A stretch of 46,872 bases of DNA from contig JAUQXK010000082.1 of the NCBI GenBank assembly GCA_030834695.1, positions 1 through 46,872 of the forward strand, in the 5' to 3' direction. Position 1 is the stretch's first letter. Every line of letters starts with the position of its first letter. This DNA comes from Desulfobacterales bacterium (GTDB lineage: Bacteria; Desulfobacterota; Desulfobacteria; Desulfobacterales; SpSt-501). Positions 4,374-26,827 of this stretch are shown here, one piece after another. Under the pieces are notes generated by a model. The model worked only from the letters and a program-made list of their open reading frames with translations. It was not told where the DNA came from and searched no databases. A program made the position numbers and the translations under genes.

Positions 4374-6149
4374 ATGGATAGAAAAATTAATGTTTTCAGA
4401 AACGTTATTTGTTTGCTCATTTTGGGGGCAATGTTGGCAGTACCGAACAGTGTTTTTTCTCAATCTCAGAGAACGGTTGGGTTGATCAAGAGAGACATAA
4501 GAGCATATGAAGGATATACTCTTTACAAACCTCTTGCAGCGGTTCCCGGCGGACCGGTCTATTTGATAAATAACGCCGGCAACCCTGTTCACCAATGGAC
4601 CATCCCGTTGCCTACTCGACCCGGCGGTGAGGTGTTTTTACGAAGAAATGGCGAATTGGTTCTAACCACCGACCAAGGTTTTTATGCAATTAATCCTGAT
4701 AGCACTGTGGCATGGGTGGTCGACAGCACTCAACCTACTATTCCAGGTCAAGAGCGATGGTTTGGACACCATGAAGTTGTCGAACTTCCCAACGGCAATA
4801 TGCTGGTGCCAGGGTTCATTGAAAAGACAAGAGCTGAAGCAGAATCGGCAGGCTTTGATGTAGTGGCTGCAGATCAATGTTCGAGTGCGCCGGATCTCAC
4901 GGTCTTGCGCGTAGACAATATTTGGGAAGTAGCACCCATCGATCCGCAGGTCGGCTTCAAAAGCGGTTGGAAAGTTGTTTGGAGATGGAATATTTGGGAT
5001 CACTTCACAAATGACCACAATGATCGCAAAAAAGCATTTATCGGTTATGATGATCCAGCATCTGGCATATGCGGACAATATATACAAGGGGCTTGGACAT
5101 TCGGCCGATTTAATGCTTTGGGCTATCATCCTCGTCGCAATGAGATAGTCATGAGCGCCTCGCTGTTCAACGAAATCTGGATTATCGACCATAAGATCAC
5201 AACCGAGGAAGCAAAGGGTCCTGCGGGCGACTTGCTCTATCGATGGGGCAATCCATATGCCTATGGTGCGGGCGAACCTTTTGTAAGTCCTTCTGACCGG
5301 GGAGATCAAAAGCTTTCATTTCAACATCGCGTCCAATGGATTCCTAAGGGATATCCAGGCCAAAACCACATTCTGATTTTCAATAATGGCACCGATTGGG
5401 GAGATTCTTCCGTCATTGAAATAAAACCTCCTCTTGACAGCAACGGCAATTACATGCAGCCATCTCCCGGTCAAGCCTTCGGGCCCCAAGCCCCCCTTTG
5501 GCAATATGACGAATACGACACGCCCGGCTCGTTTTCAGCGGCATTAATATCTTCGGCTCAGCGCCTTCCCAATGGAAATACACTCATCAATAATGGGCCG
5601 GCTGGATATTTCTTTGAAGTTACTTGCAATGGGGAAAAGGTGTGGGAATATATCAACCCGGCTTCCGATGCTGCGCAAGGCGACAATGCACCTTTTGGTG
5701 TATATCGTGCCTGGAGGTATGCGCCTGATTACCCCGGGCTGGTTGGCGCGAACATTCCCCCGAGAGAGCCGTTAGAGCTGTATCCAACCATGTACACGGT
5801 TGATGTTAAGCCTGGGGCATGCAAAAATACGATAAATAGAGAAAGCGGCACCGGAATGCTGGCTGTGGCAATACTTGGCTCAGAAGATCTTGACGTTACG
5901 ACCATCGACCCAGGTTCAATTCTTCTTGAAGGGTTTCCGGCTGTTAAATGGGTGATCAAGGATATGAGCAGTTTAGATCAATGTGATTGCGGTGACGGAT
6001 ATCCTGATTTGGTTCTGAAATGGGATAGGCCTACTATCAATGTTGCATTGGACAATGCTAGTCCGGGCAGTGATTTTCTGATGCAATTGACTGGCTATTC
6101 ATCCGATGGATGGTTTATAGGAAGCGAAGAGGTTTTTGTACTAAAATAA
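4374..6149 (+). CDS. Exported arylsulfotransferase-like protein with extra C-terminal domain
   Basis: ATG 4374 follows a strong AAGGAGGGGG site, giving 591 residues; the GTG at 4344 is less likely. Residues 1-29 form a signal peptide (cleavage near VFS-QSQ). The body resembles the arylsulfotransferase (ASST) family, a beta-propeller that moves sulfate between phenolic compounds in the periplasm: HHEVVELPNGNML, GYHPRRNEIVMSAS, QHRVQWIPKG and RLPNGNTLINNG are typical blade motifs with candidate active-site His/Arg. From about residue 480 a separate domain begins (VDVKPGACKNTIN, VAILGSEDLDVTTIDP, GYPDLVLKWD), a module seen on various secreted proteins of environmental bacteria. No DsbA/DsbB partners, often next to enteric astA, are nearby. 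The substrate is unknown, and sulfotransferase activity is inferred. Confidence 0.75.
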   Translation: MDRKINVFRNVICLLILGAMLAVPNSVFSQSQRTVGLIKRDIRAYEGYTLYKPLAAVPGGPVYLINNAGNPVHQWTIPLPTRPGGEVFLRRNGELVLTTDQGFYAINPDSTVAWVVDSTQPTIPGQERWFGHHEVVELPNGNMLVPGFIEKTRAEAESAGFDVVAADQCSSAPDLTVLRVDNIWEVAPIDPQVGFKSGWKVVWRWNIWDHFTNDHNDRKKAFIGYDDPASGICGQYIQGAWTFGRFNALGYHPRRNEIVMSASLFNEIWIIDHKITTEEAKGPAGDLLYRWGNPYAYGAGEPFVSPSDRGDQKLSFQHRVQWIPKGYPGQNHILIFNNGTDWGDSSVIEIKPPLDSNGNYMQPSPGQAFGPQAPLWQYDEYDTPGSFSAALISSAQRLPNGNTLINNGPAGYFFEVTCNGEKVWEYINPASDAAQGDNAPFGVYRAWRYAPDYPGLVGANIPPREPLELYPTMYTVDVKPGACKNTINRESGTGMLAVAILGSEDLDVTTIDPGSILLEGFPAVKWVIKDMSSLDQCDCGDGYPDLVLKWDRPTINVALDNASPGSDFLMQLTGYSSDGWFIGSEEVFVLK

Positions 6150-6196
6150 TGCTATTATAAGAGATGTTCATTTTAGCGAGCGACCATTGAGATAGT

Positions 6197-6211
6197 CCGA
6201 CTTAAAGTCGG
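6197..6211 (+). other. Small hairpin before terminator
   Basis: CCGAC-TTAAA-GTCGG can form a 5-bp stem just upstream of the terminator hairpin. Together they make a two-hairpin 3' end that might be a processed small RNA or simply the transcript tail. Confidence 0.35.
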
Positions 6212-6224
6212 GAGGCCGTATATA

Positions 6225-6259
6225 GGGTAGGGTCAGAAATGGCTCTACCCTTTTTTTTT
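6225..6259 (+). terminator. Rho-independent terminator after the arylsulfotransferase-like gene
   Basis: The stem GGGTAGGGTC/GGCTCTACCC (with G-T pairs) around a 6-base loop is followed by nine T residues. It lies about 75 bases after the stop codon at 6149. Confidence 0.9.
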
Positions 6260-6529
6260 CAAATTTCATTCTGGGTCGGCCCGGAAAAAAATAAGGATTT
6301 TCCTTCGATGGGTAATTTGCTGAAATAACTGTTACATTTTTTTCATGTGAAATTAAGTATATAATTTTAAGATAAATTTATAACAAACTGTTTTTGTTTC
6401 TAAATATATATCAGCACAATGGCACTTTTCTTGCTTTACTGGGGGGCACTCAGAATGCCATAAGCTCAAGGGACGGACTTGCTTTTCAGTTCCTCTTAAA
6501 TTCCAACACAAACTTCGAGCGGCCAAAAG

Positions 6530-18636: not shown

Positions 18637-20271
18637 ATGTATGAGATCAAGAGCCAGATCACAGAAACCGCCGAATTTGAAAAGATCCGCCGGGTGGACG
18701 GCTTCCGGAACATCACGGCCGAATTTCCGGCTTACCTCACCGATGAGTCCAAGTTTTCCTGCCAGCCGTTTGACTTCCTCTTTTTCCCGAAAAGCGAGGC
18801 CGAGCTGTCCGCGGTGATGAGCGAGATGGCCCGCCGCGGCGTCAAGGCCACCATCGCCGGCGCGCGGACCGGGCTGGTGGGCGGGTGTGTGCCGAACCAG
18901 GGGGCGCTGGTTTCCCTGGAAAATCTCGACCGGGTTCTGGCCCTTTACTATGACGGCCCGTCGGCCGAGTGGCGGCTCAAGGCCCAGTGCGCCGTGAGCT
19001 TGAGGGCCATTGCGGCCCAGCTTGCCGCGAAAAGCATCCCGGACATCGAGCGCTGCGCCGACGGCCTGACGCTGCTCGAAATGGACCGCTTCCGGCAGGA
19101 CCCCGATTCTTATTTCTACCCGCCCGACCCGACCGAGATGAGCGCCTCACTCGGCGGTACGGTGGCCACCAACGCCTCGGGCGCGCGCACCTTCCGCTAC
19201 GGACCGACCCGCGACTGGGTGCGCGGTATCCGCGTCATGCTGGCCAACGGCGAATTACTGGACCTGCCCCGGGGCAAATACTTCGCCTCGCCGAGCGGGG
19301 AATTCACCGTCACCGACAGCGCCGGCAGGGATTACAAGGTGAAAATTCCCACCTACCGGTCTCCGCGCACCAAGAACACCGCCGGCTTCTTCGCCGCTGC
19401 GCACATGGACCTCGTGGATCTCTTCATCGGATCCGAGGGCGCGTTCGGCGTCATCACCGAGATTACGGTCGGCCTTCTGAAACGCACGCCGAAAATCTCC
19501 GTGGTTCAGTTCCTGGCTTCCGACGATCAGGCCATTGACCTTGTCCGGGCCCTGCGCACGGATTCCCGCATCCGGCTCGACTTCCTGGAGATGTACTCGG
19601 GCACCGCCATCGACCTTCTGCGTGAACGGCAGCGCCGGGACGCCAAATCGGTCGGCACTCCGACGATCCCCGAGACGGCGCGCTCGGCGCTCTTTTTCGA
19701 ACTGGATTTCGATCCGGCCGCCAAGGAGGTCGCGATGGAGGCCTTGGATGCCGCCGTCCGCGCCGGCGGGGCATCTTTGGCCGAGTCCTGGGCTGCTTAC
19801 GAAAACCGGGAACTGGACCGTTTGAAGAATTTCCGCCACATCCTGCCGGAAACCATCAACGCCATCATCGCCGAGCGCAAGAAGCGGCATCCCGGGCTGC
19901 ACAAGCTGGGGACGGACTTGGCGGTGCCGAACGAGCGCCTGGCCGACATGTGGGCGGTTTACCGGGACGCGTTGGCGGGAGCCGGGCTGGAGTGGGCGGC
20001 TTTCGGGCACATCGGCAACAACCACGTGCACATCAACATCATGCCGCGCGACATGGCCGATCTGCAGAAGGCGCTGGGGCTTTACCAGATGTTTGCGGAG
20101 AAGGCGGTCGCCTTCGGCGGGTCGGTCTCGGCCGAGCACGGCGTCGGCAAGCTGAAGGCCAAGTTTCTCAAGACCATGTTCAGCCCGGCGGAGATCGAGG
20201 AGATGCGCGCGGTGAAGCGTGCGCTGGATCCAGCAATGCTGCTGAATCCGGGGAATATCTTCGAAGAATAG
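18637..20271 (+). CDS. FAD-linked oxidase, GlcD/D-lactate dehydrogenase-like
   Basis: 544 residues of the vanillyl-alcohol-oxidase/PCMH flavoprotein fold. The N-terminal FAD domain has GARTGLVGGCVPNQGALVSLE (substrate/FAD loop), PPDPTEMSASLGGTVATNASG and GSEGAFGVITEITVGL. The C-terminal half includes FGHIGNNHVHINIMPRD and SAEHGVGKLKAKF, which match the D-lactate/glycolate dehydrogenase metal and active-site region. It oxidises a 2-hydroxyacid to a 2-oxoacid. Upstream are a TRAP importer and FadR-type regulator, and downstream are EtfB and ferredoxin-fused EtfA, an arrangement like the electron-confurcating lactate dehydrogenase LctBCD of Acetobacterium. Substrate identity is inferred, not shown. 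Confidence 0.88.
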   Translation: MYEIKSQITETAEFEKIRRVDGFRNITAEFPAYLTDESKFSCQPFDFLFFPKSEAELSAVMSEMARRGVKATIAGARTGLVGGCVPNQGALVSLENLDRVLALYYDGPSAEWRLKAQCAVSLRAIAAQLAAKSIPDIERCADGLTLLEMDRFRQDPDSYFYPPDPTEMSASLGGTVATNASGARTFRYGPTRDWVRGIRVMLANGELLDLPRGKYFASPSGEFTVTDSAGRDYKVKIPTYRSPRTKNTAGFFAAAHMDLVDLFIGSEGAFGVITEITVGLLKRTPKISVVQFLASDDQAIDLVRALRTDSRIRLDFLEMYSGTAIDLLRERQRRDAKSVGTPTIPETARSALFFELDFDPAAKEVAMEALDAAVRAGGASLAESWAAYENRELDRLKNFRHILPETINAIIAERKKRHPGLHKLGTDLAVPNERLADMWAVYRDALAGAGLEWAAFGHIGNNHVHINIMPRDMADLQKALGLYQMFAEKAVAFGGSVSAEHGVGKLKAKFLKTMFSPAEIEEMRAVKRALDPAMLLNPGNIFEE

Positions 20272-20295
20272 GGTTCAAGGGGTCGAGGGTTCAAG
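20271..20295. repeat. Left inverted repeat of the four-helix-bundle cassette
   Basis: GGGTTCAAGG-GGTCGA-GGGTTCAAG immediately follows (shares one base with) the stop codon of the dehydrogenase gene. Its inverted copy lies at 20657-20690, just before etfB. Confidence 0.7.
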
Positions 20296-20299
20296 CGAA

Positions 20300-20670
20300 A
20301 TGCTTACGAACTACAACGAGTTGAAAGGATGGCAAAGAGCCTACCGCCTTTGTCTGGGAATTTACAAGCTTACGAAGCCCTTTCCCAAGGATGAACAATA
20401 CAACCTCACATCGCAAATACGAAGGGCGGCTGTATCCATACCTTCAATATCGCAGAGGGGTATGGCCGGGGAACCAAGCCAGACTATATCCGGTCCCTGT
20501 ATATCTCCTATGGTTCAACCTGCGAATTGGAAACACAGATAATGATATCCGGAGACTTTGGAAATATCAGTGAGGAGAGCATTACAAAGCTCCAGGAGGA
20601 TCTTCGCGAGGTCGAAAGAATGCTCAAAGCACTTATCACGTCTTTGGAAAATAAACCCTTGAACCCTTGA
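20300..20670 (+). pseudogene. Four-helix-bundle protein (23S rRNA intervening-sequence type), frameshifted
   Basis: The frame from ATG 20300 encodes NELKGWQRAYRLCLGIYKLT and then SQIRRAAVSIPS, the standard start of the four-helix-bundle (TIGR02436-type) family. At about 20446 the frame breaks: one base appears missing, because the next frame continues exactly as expected with NIAEGYGRGTKPDYIRSLYI, then a Glu-rich helix, to a stop at 20668-20670. Restored, the protein would be about 123 residues, the normal family length. Family members are encoded in rRNA intervening sequences and in small scattered cassettes; their function is unclear. Here it is bounded by inverted GGGTTCAAG repeats and inserted between the dehydrogenase and etfB. 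It is either a true pseudogene or a sequencing error. Confidence 0.85.
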
Positions 20671-20690
20671 ACCCTGGACTCCTCGAACCC
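20657..20690. repeat. Right inverted repeat of the four-helix-bundle cassette
   Basis: CTTGAACCCTTGAACCCTGG followed by ACTCCTCGAACCC is the near-complement of the left repeat. It overlaps the end of the frameshifted gene and ends four bases before the etfB start, so it forms the etfB leader. Confidence 0.7.
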
Positions 20691-20693
20691 ATT

Positions 20694-21500
20694 ATGCCCA
20701 TGAAACTCGTCGTCTGTGTCAAACAGGTCCCTGAAATCACCAACGTGCGGGTCAACCCCGATACCGGGACATTGATCCGCGAGGGCGTCGCCTCGATTCT
20801 AAACCCCTTCTGCGAGTATGCTCTGGACCATGCCGTGAAGCTCAAAGCGGCCGACCCGGAGATCGAGATCATCGCCGTCAGCATGGGACCGCCTCAAGCT
20901 GTATCGGCGCTGCTGCGCTGCCTGGAGCTTGGCGCCGACCGGGCGGTCCTGGTCAGCGACCGCAAGTTCGCCGGCGCCGACACGTGGGCAACGGCGCTGA
21001 CCCTGGCGGCCGTCATCCGCAGGGCGGTGCCGGATGCCGACCTGATCCTGGTCGGCAAGCAGGCCATCGACGGCGACACCGCCCAGGTGGGTCCGGAAAT
21101 CGCCGAAATTCTGGGAATGGCCCAGATCATGTACGGGGTCGAGATGTCGCTCACTTCGAGCCGTAAGCGCATCCGCGTGAAGCGCGAGGTCGAGTTCGGC
21201 TACGAAGTTCTGGAAGCGCGCCTGCCGGCCCTCGTTTCGGCCAGCAAAGGCGAGACCCTGCGGCGGATGCCGTCGCTGGCGGACGTGCTGTCGGCGCGGC
21301 GCAAGGAGCTGCGGGCCGTCACGGCGGCAGACCTCGATCTCTCCGAAAGCGAGCTCGGGCTGGCCGGCTCCTACACCCAGGTGGTCAAGGTGTTTCCGCC
21401 TTCTCCGAAGGAAGGCGGGCGCAAGATCGAGGGTCTCGAACCGGCCGCGGCCGCGAACGAAATCGCGGCGTTCCTGAAATCGGAAGGGTATGTGGGTTGA
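20694..21500 (+). CDS. etfB: Electron transfer flavoprotein beta subunit, bifurcating type
   Basis: 268 residues from ATG 20694 (a second ATG at 20700 gives the more usual MKLVVCVKQV start). It binds FAD/AMP with EtfA. The motif GKQAIDGDTAQVGPEIAE is the form I associate with bifurcating EtfBs that bind a second FAD, rather than the AMP-binding DDDCNQTG form of respiratory ETF. It is followed after 3 bases by etfA. With the upstream FAD-linked oxidase it probably forms a complex that couples 2-hydroxyacid oxidation to NAD reduction using reduced ferredoxin. No ribosome site is evident, since an inverted repeat occupies the leader. Confidence 0.92.
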   Translation: MPMKLVVCVKQVPEITNVRVNPDTGTLIREGVASILNPFCEYALDHAVKLKAADPEIEIIAVSMGPPQAVSALLRCLELGADRAVLVSDRKFAGADTWATALTLAAVIRRAVPDADLILVGKQAIDGDTAQVGPEIAEILGMAQIMYGVEMSLTSSRKRIRVKREVEFGYEVLEARLPALVSASKGETLRRMPSLADVLSARRKELRAVTAADLDLSESELGLAGSYTQVVKVFPPSPKEGGRKIEGLEPAAAANEIAAFLKSEGYVG

Positions 21501-21503
21501 AAT

Positions 21504-22691
21504 ATGCTAAAGATAGACCATCACGTCTGCAACCTCTGCGGCCTGTGCCAGAAATCGTGCCCTTTCGGCGCGATTTCCGCCGGCGAGGAAAAAGTCACGG
21601 TGGACGAGCGCTGCACGCTCTGCGGCGCCTGCGTCAATGTCTGTCCGCAATCGGCCTTGTCCATCGAGCGCCGGCAGGCCTCGCCCGAGGAGCTGGCTCA
21701 GTACCGCGGGGTCTTTGTCTGGACCGAATGCGAGGAACGCGGGAAAAAACAGGTCCCGCGCAAGGTCGTCTACGAGCTGTTGACCCACGGCCGCCGCCTG
21801 GCGGACCGCCTGGGGCAGCCCCTGGCCGCCATCGCCCTGGGAGATTCCCGGATGGAGGACCTCGATCGATTGTGCCACCAGGGTGCGGACCGCGTCATCT
21901 GCTGCCGCCACGATCTGCTCGGAAGCTACTCCACGGACGGGTTCACCACGGCTCTGGCGGCGGTGGTGGCCAAAGAGAAGCCCTCCGTTCTGCTGTTCGG
22001 GGCCACCCCCAACGGACGCGACCTAGCCCCGCGAGTGGCGGCGCGCCTACGGTTCGGCCTGACCGCGGACTGCACCGGCCTTGACATCGACGACCAGAAC
22101 CAGCTCGTGCAGACGCGGCCGGCGTTCGGCGGCAACATCATGGCGAGCATCATCTCGCCTTACACCCGGCCGCAGGCCGCCACGGTGCGGCCGAATGTTT
22201 TCGTCGCTTCGGCACCCGACCCGTCCCGGCCGGCTGTGATCGAGGAGTTTCCCGTAACGCTGTCGAAGGCTTCCATCCGTACCAAGGTGGTCGAGACGAT
22301 TGCGACGGGGGGGGAAGCAGAAAAAATAGAGGAGGCCCGCGTCATCGTATCCGCCGGCCGGGGATGCGGGGAGCCTTCCCACCTGGAATTGGTGCGCAGC
22401 CTGGCGCACCGGCTCGGAGGCGCCATGGCGGGCTCGCGGGCCATCGTCGAGCTCGGCTGGATTCCGCACACCATCCAAGTCGGCCAGTCCGGCACGACCG
22501 TGGGTCCCGACCTCTACATCGCCGTCGGCATCAGCGGCGCCGTACAGCACATCGTGGGCATGAGTTCATCGAAAAAAATCATCGCCATCAACAAGGACCC
22601 CGACGCGCCCATTTTCAAGATCGCCGACCTCGGAGTGGTCGGCGATGCCCTGCACATTCTGCCGAAGCTGCTTGACGCCCTCAAAGCGTGA
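21504..22691 (+). CDS. etfA: Electron transfer flavoprotein alpha subunit fused to a 2[4Fe-4S] ferredoxin domain
   Basis: 395 residues. Residues 1-55 form a two-cluster ferredoxin domain (CNLCGLCQKSCP and CTLCGACVNVCP). After a linker comes a full EtfA with the C-terminal FAD-binding motif SGAVQHIVGMSSSKKIIAINKD and HTIQVGQSGTTVGPDLY. Such fusions occur in the caffeyl-CoA reductase EtfA (CarE) and in related bifurcating systems; the extra clusters pass electrons from ferredoxin. It starts 3 bases after etfB. This supports a soluble cytoplasmic electron-confurcating complex. Confidence 0.95.
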   Translation: MLKIDHHVCNLCGLCQKSCPFGAISAGEEKVTVDERCTLCGACVNVCPQSALSIERRQASPEELAQYRGVFVWTECEERGKKQVPRKVVYELLTHGRRLADRLGQPLAAIALGDSRMEDLDRLCHQGADRVICCRHDLLGSYSTDGFTTALAAVVAKEKPSVLLFGATPNGRDLAPRVAARLRFGLTADCTGLDIDDQNQLVQTRPAFGGNIMASIISPYTRPQAATVRPNVFVASAPDPSRPAVIEEFPVTLSKASIRTKVVETIATGGEAEKIEEARVIVSAGRGCGEPSHLELVRSLAHRLGGAMAGSRAIVELGWIPHTIQVGQSGTTVGPDLYIAVGISGAVQHIVGMSSSKKIIAINKDPDAPIFKIADLGVVGDALHILPKLLDALKA

Positions 22692-22816: not shown

Positions 22817-22844
22817 TGTAACTTTTCCCGCGTTTATGCGTTAA
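22817..22844 (+). promoter_or_regulatory. Putative ECF-sigma promoter of the sigma operon
   Basis: TGTAAC, a 16-base spacer, then CGTTAA. The identical pattern and spacing occur at 25518-25545. The expected transcription start is within a few bases of the GTG start codon at 22854, so the message would be leaderless or nearly so. Suggests autoregulation. Confidence 0.7.
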
Positions 22845-22853
22845 ACTGGGTGG

Positions 22854-23330
22854 GTGAACACGTTTAAGGACTTCTATAACCGGCAGCGGCAGAAATTTTT
22901 TGCCTATCTCATCCGCCGTGCGGGAGACTATCATCTGGCTTGCGACATCATGCAGGAGAGCTTCACCCGTCTTTATGAGAAATACCCGGCGGAGCACTTC
23001 ACACCGCAGCTGTTGTACACGATCGGTAGGAACCTCGTTCTGGATGCGCTGCGCAAACGAAAATACAATCCGTCTGAGATTGAGGACGTCGAGCCGGCGG
23101 CCGACGGCCAGGAACACTATCTCATGGTGCGCGACGAGTACCGGCAGGTGCTCGCCGCCATGCGGCATCTGGAGGACGACGAAAGAGACCTGCTGTCGCT
23201 CGTTGTGAGCAGCGAGTTGTCGTACCGCGAACTTGCCGAAATAACGGGCCTCAGCGAAGCCAACGTCAAGGTGAAGATCCATCGCGCCCGCAAGAAGCTG
23301 CGAACCTACCTTGGAGCGGAAAGGCAATGA
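22854..23330 (+). CDS. ECF-family RNA polymerase sigma factor
   Basis: 158 residues from GTG 22854. Sigma region 2 spans about residues 4-45 (FKDFYNRQRQKFFAYLI, then HLACDIMQESFTRLYE), and region 4 spans about 100-153 (LSYRELAEITGLSEANVKVKIHRARKKLR), with the typical linker between. It would direct RNA polymerase to a small regulon. The stop overlaps the start of the next gene, a membrane protein with the position and layout of an anti-sigma factor. The repeated TGTAAC-N16-CGTTAA pattern upstream of this gene and of the glycine-rich gene at 25670 is the probable target. ECF subgroup is not assigned. Confidence 0.95.
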   Translation: MNTFKDFYNRQRQKFFAYLIRRAGDYHLACDIMQESFTRLYEKYPAEHFTPQLLYTIGRNLVLDALRKRKYNPSEIEDVEPAADGQEHYLMVRDEYRQVLAAMRHLEDDERDLLSLVVSSELSYRELAEITGLSEANVKVKIHRARKKLRTYLGAERQ

Positions 23331-23881
23331 ACGACCTGCTGATCAGCATGTACATCGACGATGAGCTTGACCTGGACGATAAAATCGTTTTCGTCGAGAC
23401 CGTGCATGAAGATAAGAATTTCAAAGACGACGCCGTAAACCTGCTCCGGCAGGAAAAACTCATCCGCACGGACGTCGTGGAGCGGCTGCCGGCGCTGAGC
23501 ATCAGGGAACGGAGCAGCCCCTGGCGGTTGAAGCTGTTCCGGCCGCTCGCTGCGGCCGCCGCCGGACTGGCGGCTGCCGCGATCGTCTGGTTGACCTTCT
23601 GGCCGTCACCGGAGCAGCCGCTGCGGCCCTGGCGGTTTGTGATCTATCAGCCGGACGCGCAGGGAGTCGAGCTGGCCGGGAGCTTCAGCAGCTGGAAGCG
23701 AATTCCGTTGAAGCATGCCGGAAACAGCGGCTACTGGGAGATCACCCTTGAGCTCCCCGAAGGCGACCATCGCTTCAGCTATATCATCGAAGGCAGCCGA
23801 CGCGTGGCCGATCCGACCATTGCGGTCCGCGAAGCCGACGACTTCGGCGGCGAGAATTCAATTTTAACGGTCAAACTTTAA
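23327..23881 (+). CDS. Anti-sigma-like membrane protein with C-terminal glycogen-binding-type domain
   Basis: 184 residues; the start overlaps the sigma stop (ATGA). Residues 1-65 are cytoplasmic, acidic and helical, with no zinc-finger cysteines. One membrane helix lies at about 72-92. Residues 103-182 form an E-set/AMPK-type glycogen-binding domain (CBM48-like): VELAGSFSSWKRIPL, YWEITLELPEGDHRFSYII and DPTIAVREADDFGGENSIL. Position and topology imply that it holds the sigma factor at the membrane and releases it on an extracytoplasmic cue sensed by the CBM-like domain, perhaps a glycan. Anti-sigma function is inferred from gene order; the domain call is from recognisable motifs. Confidence 0.8.
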   Translation: MNDLLISMYIDDELDLDDKIVFVETVHEDKNFKDDAVNLLRQEKLIRTDVVERLPALSIRERSSPWRLKLFRPLAAAAAGLAAAAIVWLTFWPSPEQPLRPWRFVIYQPDAQGVELAGSFSSWKRIPLKHAGNSGYWEITLELPEGDHRFSYIIEGSRRVADPTIAVREADDFGGENSILTVKL

Positions 23882-23884
23882 ACC

Positions 23885-24205
23885 GTGAAGCACCGAATGA
23901 TTCCAATTCTGGCGGCGGTTTTGGCAGCGGGAGGCTGCACCTTGCACTACCATGTCGTCAACAACGGTCAGGTTGAGATGTATCTGACGGCACCGCAGGC
24001 ACAGTCAGTGGTGCTGGTGGTCGCCGGCGATCCGTTCCAGAAGGTTCAGGCGCTACGGGACGCCTCCGGCACCTGGAAAGCAACACTGAACCAGCCGGGT
24101 GAATTCAAATATTTCTATATAATGGACAACCAGGCGTACCTGCCGGATTGCCGCCTGAAGGAACATGACGATTTCGGATCGGACAATTGTGTTTTTGCGC
24201 CGTGA
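23885..24205 (+). CDS. Small lipoprotein with an E-set/CBM48-like fold
   Basis: 106 residues from GTG 23885, 3 bases after the anti-sigma-like gene. The signal peptide ends in the lipobox AAGGC (lipidated Cys18). The mature part repeats features of the preceding protein's C-terminal domain: EMYLTAPQAQSVVLV, SGTWKATLNQPGEFKYFYI and HDDFGSDNCVF, the last paralleling DDFGGENSIL. Two cysteines (89, 102) could form a disulfide. It probably arose by duplication of the sensor domain and may be a periplasmic co-sensor or ligand carrier. No known family name can be given with certainty. Confidence 0.75.
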   Translation: MKHRMIPILAAVLAAGGCTLHYHVVNNGQVEMYLTAPQAQSVVLVVAGDPFQKVQALRDASGTWKATLNQPGEFKYFYIMDNQAYLPDCRLKEHDDFGSDNCVFAP

Positions 24206-24209
24206 GCAT

Positions 24210-25184
24210 ATGAACGAGGTTGCACGCGCCATGAGTCATAAAAATTTTTTCTGGAAAACGTTCGTGTTTCTTTTGGGAGGGGTCTTTCTACTGTCCAGTC
24301 CGGTCGGTGCGGACACGGTGGATCAAGGCCTGGCTCAACTGTCTGTAGCGATAAAGGACCGTACCCGCGTAATGATTCAAAAAGGGATGGCCGGCGAGGA
24401 TGCTTTGCAATTCATACAAGCCTTGAATGCCAATCGCTTCCAGGAGGAACAGATCCTGAAAGCTCAAGCCATCGTGCTGGAGGCGCAGGGCAGAGGGCTT
24501 CCGACCAAGCCGATCATCAACAAGGCGCTTGAAGGCATGGCCAAGCAGGTTCCACCTGAGCGAACCCTGCAGGCCATGGGAGCCGTGAGTTCCCGTTATG
24601 CCTTCGCTTTCGAGCAGGCCCGGCCCATCACCCAAAACACCGAGCAAATCGGGCGGCTGGGAAACATGCTCGCCGAGAGCCTTGCGGCAGGACTTAAGGA
24701 GCAGGATGCATCCCGGATCATAAACCAACTGCAAGAGCAGTCTCCGAAAATGAGCCAAAACCAGATGGATGAACTGGCCGCAGCGTGCCTGGCCATGGCA
24801 CGGGATATGTCGCGGCTTGGCGTCACTTCCGCGCTTTCCTCCCAGGTTATTTCGAGTGCGCTATCCAACGGGTTGAACGCCGCCAGCATTGCCGGCATGC
24901 ATCAGTCCATGCTCGCCCAATCACAGACGCATTCTGCGCAGAGCGTGGCACAGGGGCTTGCGCACGGAATGCAGCAGGGCCAGTCTACGCCTGGACTTGG
25001 AGGTATGACCGGAGGGCAAGGCGGTCAGGGCGGCTCCGGCGGGTCAGGAGGGGGGGGCGGCAGTGGAGGGTCTGGGGGTGGATCTGGCGGCGGCGGAGTC
25101 GGTGGTGGTGGCGGCGGTGCAGGAGGATCTGGCGGTGGCGGTGGCGCTGGCGGCGGCGGAGCCGGTGGAGGAGGTAATCGATAA
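24210..25184 (+). CDS. Exported helical protein with a glycine-rich C-terminal tail
   Basis: 324 residues from ATG 24210 (ATG 24231 is an alternative that begins exactly at the signal peptide). Signal cleavage is likely after VGA. The mature region to about residue 255 is helical and Gln/Ala-rich with no recognised domain. The last 65 or so residues are almost only Gly with scattered Ser, Ala and Val. Tails of this kind occur in structural or surface proteins. The gene starts 4 bases after the lipoprotein gene and so belongs to the sigma operon. The GC-rich tail also creates long proline-rich antisense frames, which are artefacts. Confidence 0.75.
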   Translation: MNEVARAMSHKNFFWKTFVFLLGGVFLLSSPVGADTVDQGLAQLSVAIKDRTRVMIQKGMAGEDALQFIQALNANRFQEEQILKAQAIVLEAQGRGLPTKPIINKALEGMAKQVPPERTLQAMGAVSSRYAFAFEQARPITQNTEQIGRLGNMLAESLAAGLKEQDASRIINQLQEQSPKMSQNQMDELAAACLAMARDMSRLGVTSALSSQVISSALSNGLNAASIAGMHQSMLAQSQTHSAQSVAQGLAHGMQQGQSTPGLGGMTGGQGGQGGSGGSGGGGGSGGSGGGSGGGGVGGGGGGAGGSGGGGGAGGGGAGGGGNR

Positions 25185-25231
25185 TTACCATATTCTATCG
25201 ACACAAACTCCATTCTCAGCAACTGAAGGTT

Positions 25232-25364
25232 GATGAACTCGTAAAAAGTCTGAACATGCTGTTTTTTGTCATTCCGGCGAAAGCCGGAATCAAGCCTTTA
25301 CAAGCAGTTAGAAATCCCCTGGACTCCGGCTTCCGCCGGAGTGGCGACTTTTTCCAAGGCCATC
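25232..25364. repeat. Nested inverted-repeat element (GTCATTCCGG type)
   Basis: Outer imperfect terminal repeats GATGAACTCGTAAAAAGTC and its degenerate complement GACTTTTTCCAAGGCCATC enclose the common dispersed motif GTCATTCCGGCGAAAGCCGG...CTCCGGCTTCCGCCGGAGTG. It is a MITE/REP-like unit in the 485-base spacer between the two glycine-rich genes. The two glycine-rich genes are thereby probably separate transcription units. Confidence 0.65.
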
Positions 25365-25517
25365 ACGTTTAAACGCGGATAAATAAGATTAATAAGTCCG
25401 TTTGGTACCTGGCTATTTCCATTATATCCAACCGGCTAATTCTGCAGTCGCTCTTCCTCTTTTTTCAAGTCGGTCATGCCGCAGCGTATCCCCCGTTCAT
25501 CGGTTTTTTCGATTTTC

Positions 25518-25545
25518 TGTAACTTTGTTCCAACTCGTGCGTTAA
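25518..25545 (+). promoter_or_regulatory. Putative ECF-sigma promoter of the second glycine-rich gene
   Basis: TGTAAC-N16-CGTTAA with the same spacing as the sigma gene's promoter; TGTAACTTT and TGCGTTAA are shared in full. Predicted leader of roughly 120 bases before ATG 25670. Confidence 0.7.
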
Positions 25546-25669
25546 CAAGGCATGAGAAATGAGCGATCCGCGGAATCTGTCAGCTCATGGAAATAGGAAG
25601 AAACGAAAAAATTCGTCGGCTGTATTTAGCAAAGTAAATGTTCACCTCAAAAGGAAAGGGAACGGAATC

Positions 25670-26191
25670 ATGAAAAAACTGATGCTCGTCGCGTGTTTAT
25701 TATTGGCTTTTATTATGGTGACTACGCCTCTATCGGCTGCTGGCGGTGGAGGCGGAGCTGGGGGGGGCGGTGGTGCCGGCGGAGGAGCAGGGGGCGGCGG
25801 CGGAGGAGCAGGGGGCGGCGGTGGTGGAGCCGGGGCCGGTGCGGGCGGAGCAGGCGGCGGTGCAGCTGGAGGAGGTGCAGGAGCCGGAGCAGGCAGCGGC
25901 GGCGGGGTTGGCGCCGGCTCTGGTGCGGCCTCAGGGTTAGGCATCGGCCCGGGTCCGGCAGCTTCGATCGGCCCTGGACCTAATGCGTCCTTCGGTCCCG
26001 GCCCGGGCGCTTCAATTGGTCCGGGTGCGCCTGGCGGGGCCGGGGTTGGTGCCGGTACCGGTGCATCCGTCGGTTCGGGTCCTGGCGGTACGGTCGGGCA
26101 AGGAACCGGTCATGGCCCAGCTGACGGGACCGGGAACCAAGGGATCGGGCCTCAAGACGGCACCGGCTTCGGTGCTCCTGCGCAGCGTTAG
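25670..26191 (+). CDS. Secreted glycine-rich low-complexity protein
   Basis: 173 residues from ATG 25670, which follows a purine-rich AAAGGGAACGG stretch and begins a clear signal peptide (cleavage near LSA, residue 23); an in-frame ATG at 25559 is less likely. The mature protein starts with about 60 residues of Gly/Ala, then has an octad-like repeat around SIGPGPxA (four variants near residues 95-125), then a Gly/Thr-rich end. There are no Cys and almost no charged residues until the C-terminus. The composition resembles silk-like, collagen-like or ice-interacting structural proteins, but no family is recognised. An ECF-type promoter precedes it. Confidence 0.8.
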   Translation: MKKLMLVACLLLAFIMVTTPLSAAGGGGGAGGGGGAGGGAGGGGGGAGGGGGGAGAGAGGAGGGAAGGGAGAGAGSGGGVGAGSGAASGLGIGPGPAASIGPGPNASFGPGPGASIGPGAPGGAGVGAGTGASVGSGPGGTVGQGTGHGPADGTGNQGIGPQDGTGFGAPAQR

Positions 26192-26205
26192 GCAAGAACA
26201 AATCA

Positions 26206-26241
26206 GGGAGCAGAGCATCGACTGCGTTCGGCGCTGCTCCC
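26206..26241 (+). promoter_or_regulatory. Strong hairpin between the glycine-rich and DUF2202 genes
   Basis: GGGAGCAGAGC and GCGCTGCTCCC form an 11-position stem with one mismatch around a 14-base loop. No T-run follows, so it looks like an mRNA-processing or stability element, or a weak terminator, rather than an intrinsic terminator. Confidence 0.55.
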
Positions 26242-26284
26242 TAATGATGCCAAACACATTACCAGACAGAAGAAGGGAGCAATC

Positions 26285-26827
26285 ATGAACCCCATGTTCA
26301 AGGCACTCGTTGTTGGCAGCCTGCTGCTATTATCGAGCTTCATGTCGGCTGGCTCCGTGCTGGCCGCTGATTTGACCGACGATGAGGTATATTGGCTCAC
26401 GTACATGCGTGAGGAAGAAAAGCTGGCGCGGGATGTTTACCTGTTTCTGTACGATACATGGGGCTCCCCGATTTTCAGCAAGATATCCGCAAGCGAGCAG
26501 ACCCACATGGCTGCCATAAAGACGCTGCTCGACCGGTTTGGCCTTCCGGACCCGGCAGCAGGCAAAGAGGCCGGCGAATTTTCCGCGCCGGAGCTGCAGG
26601 CGCTGTACGACGATCTGATTGCACAGGGGGGCGTTTCTCTGGTTGAAGCACTCAAGGTGGGGGTTTTTATTGAGGAGACGGATATCGAGGATCTGAACGA
26701 TGCGAAAGCTTCGACCAACCGAAAAGCCATAAAAACCGTCTACAGCAATCTTCTGCAGGGGTCATTAAATCACCTCAAGGCATTCGTTTCTAAACTGGCA
26801 AAACAGGGAATTGTGTACGAACCATAG
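26285..26827 (+). CDS. Exported DUF2202 ferritin-like protein
   Basis: 180 residues. The signal peptide ends near VLA-ADL (residue 27). The mature part matches the DUF2202 ferritin-like family: YMREEEKLARDVYLFLYDTWG, SEQTHMAAIKTLLDRFG, LQALYDDLIAQG and VGVFIEETDIEDLNDA. The Glu/His residues (EEEK, EQTH, EETD) are placed as for a diiron or related metal site in a four-helix bundle. Biochemical function is not established. A GAAGGGAG ribosome site precedes ATG 26285. It may be co-transcribed with the glycine-rich gene (94 bases upstream, with a hairpin between), and a terminator follows. Confidence 0.88.
   Translation: MNPMFKALVVGSLLLLSSFMSAGSVLAADLTDDEVYWLTYMREEEKLARDVYLFLYDTWGSPIFSKISASEQTHMAAIKTLLDRFGLPDPAAGKEAGEFSAPELQALYDDLIAQGGVSLVEALKVGVFIEETDIEDLNDAKASTNRKAIKTVYSNLLQGSLNHLKAFVSKLAKQGIVYEP

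Follow-up and report, generated by a model that had tools for sequence, protein, structure and literature searches.

The stretch of DNA analysed here, 46,872 nucleotides (nt) of contig JAUQXK010000082.1 and called the window throughout, comes from a Desulfobacterales bacterium, a relative of the sulfate reducers. It carries a set of six genes on the plus strand: an extracytoplasmic function (ECF) sigma factor of 158 amino acids with a GTG start (22854–23330), a predicted membrane anti-sigma factor of 184 amino acids (23327–23881), a lipoprotein of 106 amino acids (23885–24205), a secreted protein that we call GLYQ (24210–25184), a secreted Gly/Ala/Pro-rich protein of 173 amino acids (25670–26191) and an exported DUF2202 protein (26285–26827). 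Signal peptides and the membrane segment were assigned by eye. A promoter of ECF type, GTAAC-N16-CGTT with -35 element GTAAC and -10 element CGTTA, lies on the same strand at 22818–22842, 11 nt in front of the GTG start, and a pattern search located a second copy at 25519–25543. An initial annotation of this DNA had listed the six genes, all of them at these positions and on this strand, and we confirmed that observation; its interpretation as a cell-surface sensing and matrix-building unit under its own sigma factor is partly supported. The promoters, two further conserved cysteines in the lipoprotein, a helical domain ahead of the glycine tail of GLYQ and a wider, cytochrome-linked cassette family go beyond it. 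Our analysis indicates that the locus probably encodes a pair of ECF sigma and anti-sigma factors that act as an autoregulated switch and have secreted, mostly glycine-rich proteins as their output.

The sigma factor matches Sigma70_r4_2 (1e-13) and Sigma70_r2 (2.7e-6) in Pfam and TIGR02937 (sigma70-ECF) in NCBIfam, all above cut-off, and consists of regions 2 and 4 with little else, the layout that defines ECF sigma factors. Its stop codon overlaps the start of the next gene by 4 nt. The protein encoded there has a cytoplasmic part (about residues 1–65), one hydrophobic segment and a periplasmic AMPK-CBM/CBM48-like domain (about residues 100–184). The N-terminal part carries an ISMFIDDELxLDEK block that is conserved across 22 sequences, and no Pfam or NCBIfam profile matched residues 1–57. 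A scan of two distantly related membrane proteins gave zf-HC2, a classical anti-sigma domain, in L158 (1.5e-7) but not in L160. The 23327–23881 product appears to be a membrane anti-sigma factor that holds the sigma factor.

Gene order was compared in 37 loci (the window, L041, L043–L064 and L176–L189 without L178) that are distinct at the DNA level, being at most 91% identical; L042 duplicates L047 and L178 duplicates L046, so that both were left out, and the distant forms L065 and L066 stand outside this set. The order sigma, anti-sigma, lipoprotein, GLYQ is kept in 32 of the 37 loci, and the N-terminal match of the anti-sigma factor directly follows the sigma match in all except L063. Among the loci that depart from this order, GLYQ precedes the other genes in L045 (Desulfobacter vibrioformis), an assembly gap follows the lipoprotein gene of L050, and L063 shows only a sigma fragment with the anti-sigma start missing, while no lipoprotein was detected in L064 and L189 lies at a contig end. 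Sigma factor, anti-sigma factor, lipoprotein, GLYQ and a promoter-linked DGTG protein are all present in the culture-collection strain of L045, D. vibrioformis DSM 8776. The conserved unit with its own sigma factor proposed in the initial annotation is thus borne out, and a gene order conserved nowhere, named there as a refuting case, is not what we found. In the draft genome of L041, the anti-sigma and lipoprotein genes are fused in one shifted frame (5509–6342), either by a genuine frameshift or by an assembly error.

Full-length relatives of the membrane protein occur in 19 of 96 near genomes, that of the window included, and a partial copy in one more (G020); some match, in many cases to the CBM48 domain alone, was obtained in 42 of the 96. 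In a sample of 395 genomes of the phylum, the anti-sigma factor was detected in 19 genomes (again with the window's own) at 201.8 bits or above, the next match scoring 72.8 bits. GLYQ scored at least 180 bits in 18 genomes, all of them among these 19, and in the nineteenth (G338) a contig end interrupts the locus.

Stretches upstream of the sigma genes have in common GTAAC, exactly 16 bases and then CGTT. In the discovery set of 26 stretches (346,361 bases, L065 and L066 included), 48 such sites were found, and spacers of 10–15 and 17–23 bases gave 0–2 each. In a test set of 13 later-fetched loci (149,541 bases), the 16-base spacer occurred 24 times with 1.14 expected, and any other spacer of 8–25 bases was seen at most once. 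A site precedes the sigma gene in 35 of the 37 loci, in 33 of them at no more than 57 nt from the start of the site to the start of the sigma match, and 20 of the 37 have a site before GLYQ. In 22 of 34 loci scored, the distance from CGTT to the first in-frame start codon behind it is exactly 11 nt, which suggests that the sigma mRNA should be leaderless.

The window's own genome (5.65 Mb) contains GTAAC-N16-CGTTA exactly twice, before the sigma gene (22818) and before the Gly/Ala/Pro gene (25519), and the reversed control matches once. The control by the unit's own sigma factor that the initial annotation had claimed is strengthened by this common site, found nowhere else in the genome. Across the 395 genomes, a stricter site was detected in 10 of the 19 genomes with a full-length anti-sigma factor vs 6 of the 376 without (Fisher 2.9e-11; the cassettes are related by descent, and p-values overstate their independence), while its reversed control hit 15 genomes (counted by eye), all outside the 19. 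Among the six is L206, where the site is followed, at the end of a contig, by a truncated relative of the sigma gene; the matches L208, L211, L212, L213 and L214 were taken as chance. In a second set of 14 genomes, the strict site matched 11 times vs once for the reversed control, and all 11 matches fall inside cassette stretches. Together, these results give computational support to a sigma factor that would direct its own operon from a self-specific promoter, and strong computational support to a predicted autoregulated ECF regulon organized as a conserved unit.

Of the 71 sites in the 37 loci, 35 precede sigma, 20 precede GLYQ and 16 lie elsewhere, and 13 of the last group stand in front of a secreted or glycine-rich protein. 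Seven stand before glycine-rich DGTG-type proteins (the window, L041, L045, L047, L049, L051 and L054), three before RDGSC-type secreted proteins (L061, L184 and L185), and one each before another glycine-rich open reading frame (ORF; L044), a truncated secreted protein (L053) and a MauG-type peroxidase (CCP_MauG, L061), the last site being without the usual T-run. Two of eight unlinked sites (L070 and L088) also precede DGTG/DGSG proteins, and no readable gene follows the L067 site. The Gly/Ala/Pro protein of the window, whose ORF opens at 25559 and has a signal-peptide-like start at 25670, ends in a GIGPQDGTGFG motif common to its relatives and has no family in Pfam or NCBIfam; none of eight repeat proteins scanned matched either database at 0.01. 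Secreted proteins with RDGSC/KDGSC repeats lie next to near as well as distant forms of the system (L061:2544–2870 and L184:8245–8532 on the minus strand, L185:4489–4743 on the plus strand; further ones in L167:5567–5890, minus strand, and in L065), and the two scanned, those of L061 and L185, gave no Pfam or NCBIfam match.

The sixth gene of the window encodes a clear member of DUF2202 (PF09968; 172.9 bits with a cut-off of 22, 5.9e-51), a family that we take to be ferritin-like. It starts about 94 nt behind the Gly/Ala/Pro gene and is perhaps read from the promoter of that gene. In another genome, a DUF2202 gene has its own, unlinked sigma site (L215), and one of the DUF2202 copies of G084 adjoins the operon, with its upstream region cut off by the contig end.

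Several observations weigh against an autoregulated switch of this kind. The cytoplasmic part of the membrane protein has no convincing anti-sigma profile, as the NCBIfam antisigma match (E 0.021) covers the membrane segment. L063 yields only a fragmentary sigma match of 46 bits. The sigma gene is not directly preceded by a site in L045 and L187, and in L048 and L064 the distance between the start of the site and the sigma match is larger (109 and 189 nt). The sites in L056, L182 and L187 precede nothing recognised, although the outlying site of L187 (L207) lies before an ORF resembling a PAS protein. DUF2202 is present in only 3 of 35 system genomes searched and the second copy of G084 (L216) is without a site; listed by the initial annotation as part of the set, this protein is an occasional member, with its own promoter copy in one genome. 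The strict site matched 31 times in 20 system genomes vs 23 times for the reversed control (counted from the table), so that single unlinked sites prove little, and six of the eight unlinked strict sites (L072, L073, L078, L090, L092 and L096) fall within unrelated genes or next to them and were rejected as chance.

These counts, barely above the control, also bear on whether the locus merely consists of ordinary neighbours, its glycine-rich ORFs and promoter match being accidental. Chance can indeed produce both consensus sites and ORFs of low complexity, but the conserved order, the protein alignments and the spacer statistics speak otherwise. The spacer result in the 13 test loci contradicts this explanation, which we regard as extremely improbable.

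We next consider what the switch may sense. The periplasmic part of the anti-sigma factor (residues 100–183) matches AMPK1_CBM (2.5e-10, 40.9 bits with a cut-off of 26.8) and CBM_48 (8e-9), both above the Pfam cut-offs, and its best PDB match is the CBM of AMPK beta (3.9e-8). The protein could therefore be a true polysaccharide sensor, whose domain binds and reports an alpha-glucan or some other sugar of the envelope or matrix, a sensing mode seen, with different binding modules, in clostridial RsgI proteins. The sugar-contact residues of AMPK beta1 considered here are Trp100, Lys126, Trp133 and Asn150. Among 22 anti-sigma factors, the Trp100 equivalent is kept in 22 and the Asn150 equivalent in 21, and 20 lipoproteins have Phe (12), Tyr (7) or Val (1) at the Trp100 place, an aromatic residue in 19 of 20. 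However, none of the 22 anti-sigma factors has Lys at the Lys126 position or Trp, Tyr or Phe at the Trp133 position, and no saccharide enzyme was seen among the promoter-linked genes inspected. Because two of the four AMPK contact positions checked are lost in 22 of 22, sugar sensing by the anti-sigma factor appears doubtful, and a polysaccharide sensor unlikely. On this residue census the glycogen-sensor reading was set back: the anti-sigma factor has its domain family in common with the glycogen-binding domain of AMPK beta (CBM48), but "glycogen-binding-type", as the initial annotation had put it, is not supported as a statement about the ligand, and a label such as "glycogen sensor" seems weak.

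The lipoprotein had been described as carrying a domain similar to that of the membrane protein, and this likeness amounts to homology at the family level (hhalign 98.8%, E 4.3e-17, against the domain of the anti-sigma family). By itself, the window lipoprotein has no Pfam match, and weak matches to CBM_48 were obtained for 6 of 20 members of its family. The lipobox Cys18 stands behind a hydrophobic segment and is invariant in 20 of 20 rows, as judged by eye; Cys89 and Cys102 are likewise invariant in 20 of 20 aligned sequences. The sister domain suggests that the lipoprotein acts as a co-sensor or competitor.

GLYQ comprises a signal peptide, an all-alpha domain and a glycine-rich tail, and its ORF has an alternative opening at 24165. 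The tail that the initial annotation had called pure glycine is present but not pure, with 67% Gly in the last 72 residues; tails in the family often end in a basic residue. The domain carries a GLP...KAxEGMAK motif. No Pfam match was obtained for the window protein at 0.01, and the family gave only scattered single-member matches. A fold predicted from a single sequence was poor (pLDDT, the predicted local distance difference test, 48.9) and was discarded; that predicted from six sequences has eleven helices, with a pLDDT of 92.8 and a predicted template modelling score (pTM) of 0.85. Foldseek returned no match to this model with E of 0.001 or below. In the VIA comparison, which speaks only for the families represented there, designed helical repeats came first, the best Z of 10.9 being within the range noted for unrelated helical proteins. 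All PDB matches of the GLYQ profile fall inside the tail columns and were set aside as low-complexity chance.

Weaker matches to GLYQ were obtained in 24 further genomes of the 395-genome sample. Stretches around them were taken first from 18 of the 24 genomes (20 stretches, two each for G331 and G351) and later from the other six; L171 and L174 were chosen for their CBM48 match. Of 19 of these stretches, 17 contain an ECF sigma factor and 18 a CBM48 protein, and 6 of 6 more contain both. Since sigma and CBM48 genes adjoin the matches, and since reversed and shuffled ORFs gave none with the GLYQ profile at E up to 10, the weaker matches are not noise. A profile of eight distant GLYQ domains aligned with the window family at 98.6% (hhalign, E 5.7e-16), a match that is not independent, as the underlying alignment (A6) was built from matches to the GLYQ profile. 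GTAAC-N16-CGTT was rejected as the promoter of the distant cassettes, whose stretches contain it only once in 254,923 bases. L156, L160, L161 and L167 show a second arrangement, in which a CBM48 protein is followed by sigma, a CBM48 anti-sigma and tailed GLYQ, and a GTGAC...TGTA-like pattern was seen there by eye upstream of sigma.

The distant cassettes bear on the role of GLYQ, which might belong to the signal path, as a partner of the anti-sigma factor in the periplasm or as its feedback ligand, rather than being a structural product. Its domain keeps the company of the sigma factor and the CBM48 anti-sigma factor at this distance, even without a glycine tail, and some untailed forms sit between the two genes. 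In the window family, however, GLYQ has a long glycine tail, and its own promoter in 20 of 37 loci is what an output gene would have. We regard a role in signalling as plausible, though short of probable, and retain GLYQ as an output of the switch.

The two forms of GLYQ also differ in what follows them. A same-strand ORF with at least three CxxCH motifs lies within up to 4.5 kb downstream of 15 of 17 untailed GLYQ genes vs 0 of 35 tailed ones (Fisher 3e-11, or 8e-4 for the distant cassettes alone, kinship being ignored in both). Stretches with fewer than 1,500 bases downstream are excluded from these counts, and the cut-offs (3 CxxCH, 38% Gly) were set after viewing the loci. With the short stretches included, there are 41 tailed cases without and 0 with such a multiheme ORF, and 16 untailed cases with and 3 without. 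ORFs with up to 24 CxxCH motifs lie directly behind distant cassettes in L222, L225, L227, L162, L172, L175 and others.

From these patterns, sigma factor, anti-sigma factor and GLYQ may act together as a core module for surface control, with output of two kinds. It is tempting to go further and picture a phylum-wide cassette family with interchangeable outputs, either a glycine-tailed partner with a glycine-rich regulon or an untailed partner with a multiheme cytochrome. Its switch would sense contact with the cell's own surface, or the condition of that surface, and pick between a protein coat and a surface for electron transfer, and the CBM48 fold would have exchanged sugar binding for protein recognition. 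We offer this picture only tentatively. If the link between the core and multiheme cytochromes is true, one signalling module would join surface protein secretion and extracellular electron transfer phylum-wide.

The secreted proteins of the window family may build a matrix, as the initial annotation had supposed, or may belong to a coat or to the envelope. Instead, the output could be a redox or oxygen-stress response, and the DUF2202 gene with its own site in L215, the site before the gene of a MauG-type di-haem peroxidase in L061 and the multiheme ORFs behind most untailed cassettes would all fit such a response. On the other side stand the scarcity of DUF2202 among the system genomes, the missing T-run of the L061 site and the absence of any ORF with three or more CxxCH motifs behind the 35 tailed cassettes; moreover, the commonest outputs are low-complexity secreted proteins. 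A redox output is in our view rather unlikely, and secreted, mostly glycine-rich proteins remain the preferred output.

Other features of the window lie around and between these genes. The genes upstream (18637–22691) look by eye like those of a flavin adenine dinucleotide (FAD)-linked oxidase and of subunits of an electron-transfer flavoprotein. A repeat element (25225–25372) whose arms are inverted (CATTCCGGCGAAAGCCGGAATC type) stands between GLYQ and the second promoter and looks like a miniature inverted-repeat transposable element (MITE) or a repetitive extragenic palindromic (REP) element; the genome holds 42 matching stretches, counting itself. The Gly/Ala/Pro and DUF2202 genes have between them (26202–26245) an inverted repeat of 15 nt (87%) that lacks a T-run and is perhaps a partial stop or an mRNA stabiliser. 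Rfam scans at gathering thresholds and tRNA scans of the window gave no match.

Starting from gene order, homology and promoter sharing, which computation supports, we infer sigma/anti-sigma binding, a lipoprotein co-sensor and a leaderless mRNA, and propose the following model. In the resting state, the membrane protein would hold the sigma factor. A signal would reach the periplasmic CBM48-like domain, probably via or together with the sister-domain lipoprotein, and the sigma factor would be freed by conformational release or regulated proteolysis. The freed sigma factor would transcribe its own operon from GTAAC-N16-CGTT, yielding more sigma factor, inhibitor and lipoprotein and thus feedback of both signs. 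It would also drive the glycine-tailed helical protein, glycine-rich DGTG- or RDGSC-repeat proteins and sometimes DUF2202, and these secreted products would act outside the inner membrane. The surface biology of this bacterial group is poorly known, and the system would offer a promoter-defined regulon for secreted proteins without a Pfam or NCBIfam family.

Among the matches listed, no description of the present system was found in open-access PubMed Central (PMC). Searches there returned nothing on ECF sigma factors with AMPK1_CBM, on DUF2202 or on multiheme cytochromes with an ECF sigma and anti-sigma factor, and nothing on the present system, by title and abstract start, for anti-sigma factors with CBM48. 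Term searches of the available text of PMC7406223 and PMC8103513, which concern ECF sigma/anti-sigma pairs, gave no match. The ECF group of this sigma factor may already be defined in the ECF reclassification published in 2021. As far as the accessible part of PMC3817407 describes them, autoregulated pairs of ECF sigma factors and class I anti-sigma factors have in common with our system the adjacent overlapping genes and a promoter, here predicted to be self-directed, that has -35 and -10 blocks and a preferred spacer; the CBM48 domain, the lipoprotein and the GLYQ partner set the present system apart.

A further comparison is with RsgI/SigI of Clostridium thermocellum, in which, according to the accessible part of PMC12203970, an anti-sigma factor with an outside domain, sometimes a carbohydrate-binding module, controls cellulosome genes. 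The sigma factor of the present system is ECF and not SigI, and the self-cleaving periplasmic domain of RsgI was not found, a Pfam search at E up to 1 giving only AMPK1_CBM and CBM_48. The outside domain is CBM48-like, not CBM3 or CBM42, with the sugar contacts partly missing. There is an extra paralogous lipoprotein, the lipoprotein and envelope would be of Gram-negative type, and the output is low-complexity glycine-rich protein instead of cellulosome genes. We therefore do not class the system as a member of RsgI/SigI, since only the layout is alike while the sigma class, cleavage domain, lipoprotein and outputs differ. In that layout, an intracellular part, one membrane helix, an outside domain and a sigma partner for cell-surface machinery recur, as far as the same accessible text goes, and a domain of carbohydrate-binding type, here CBM48-like, is predicted to lie outside the membrane, its side being assigned by eye. 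In design, RsgI/SigI of C. thermocellum is the nearest described system.

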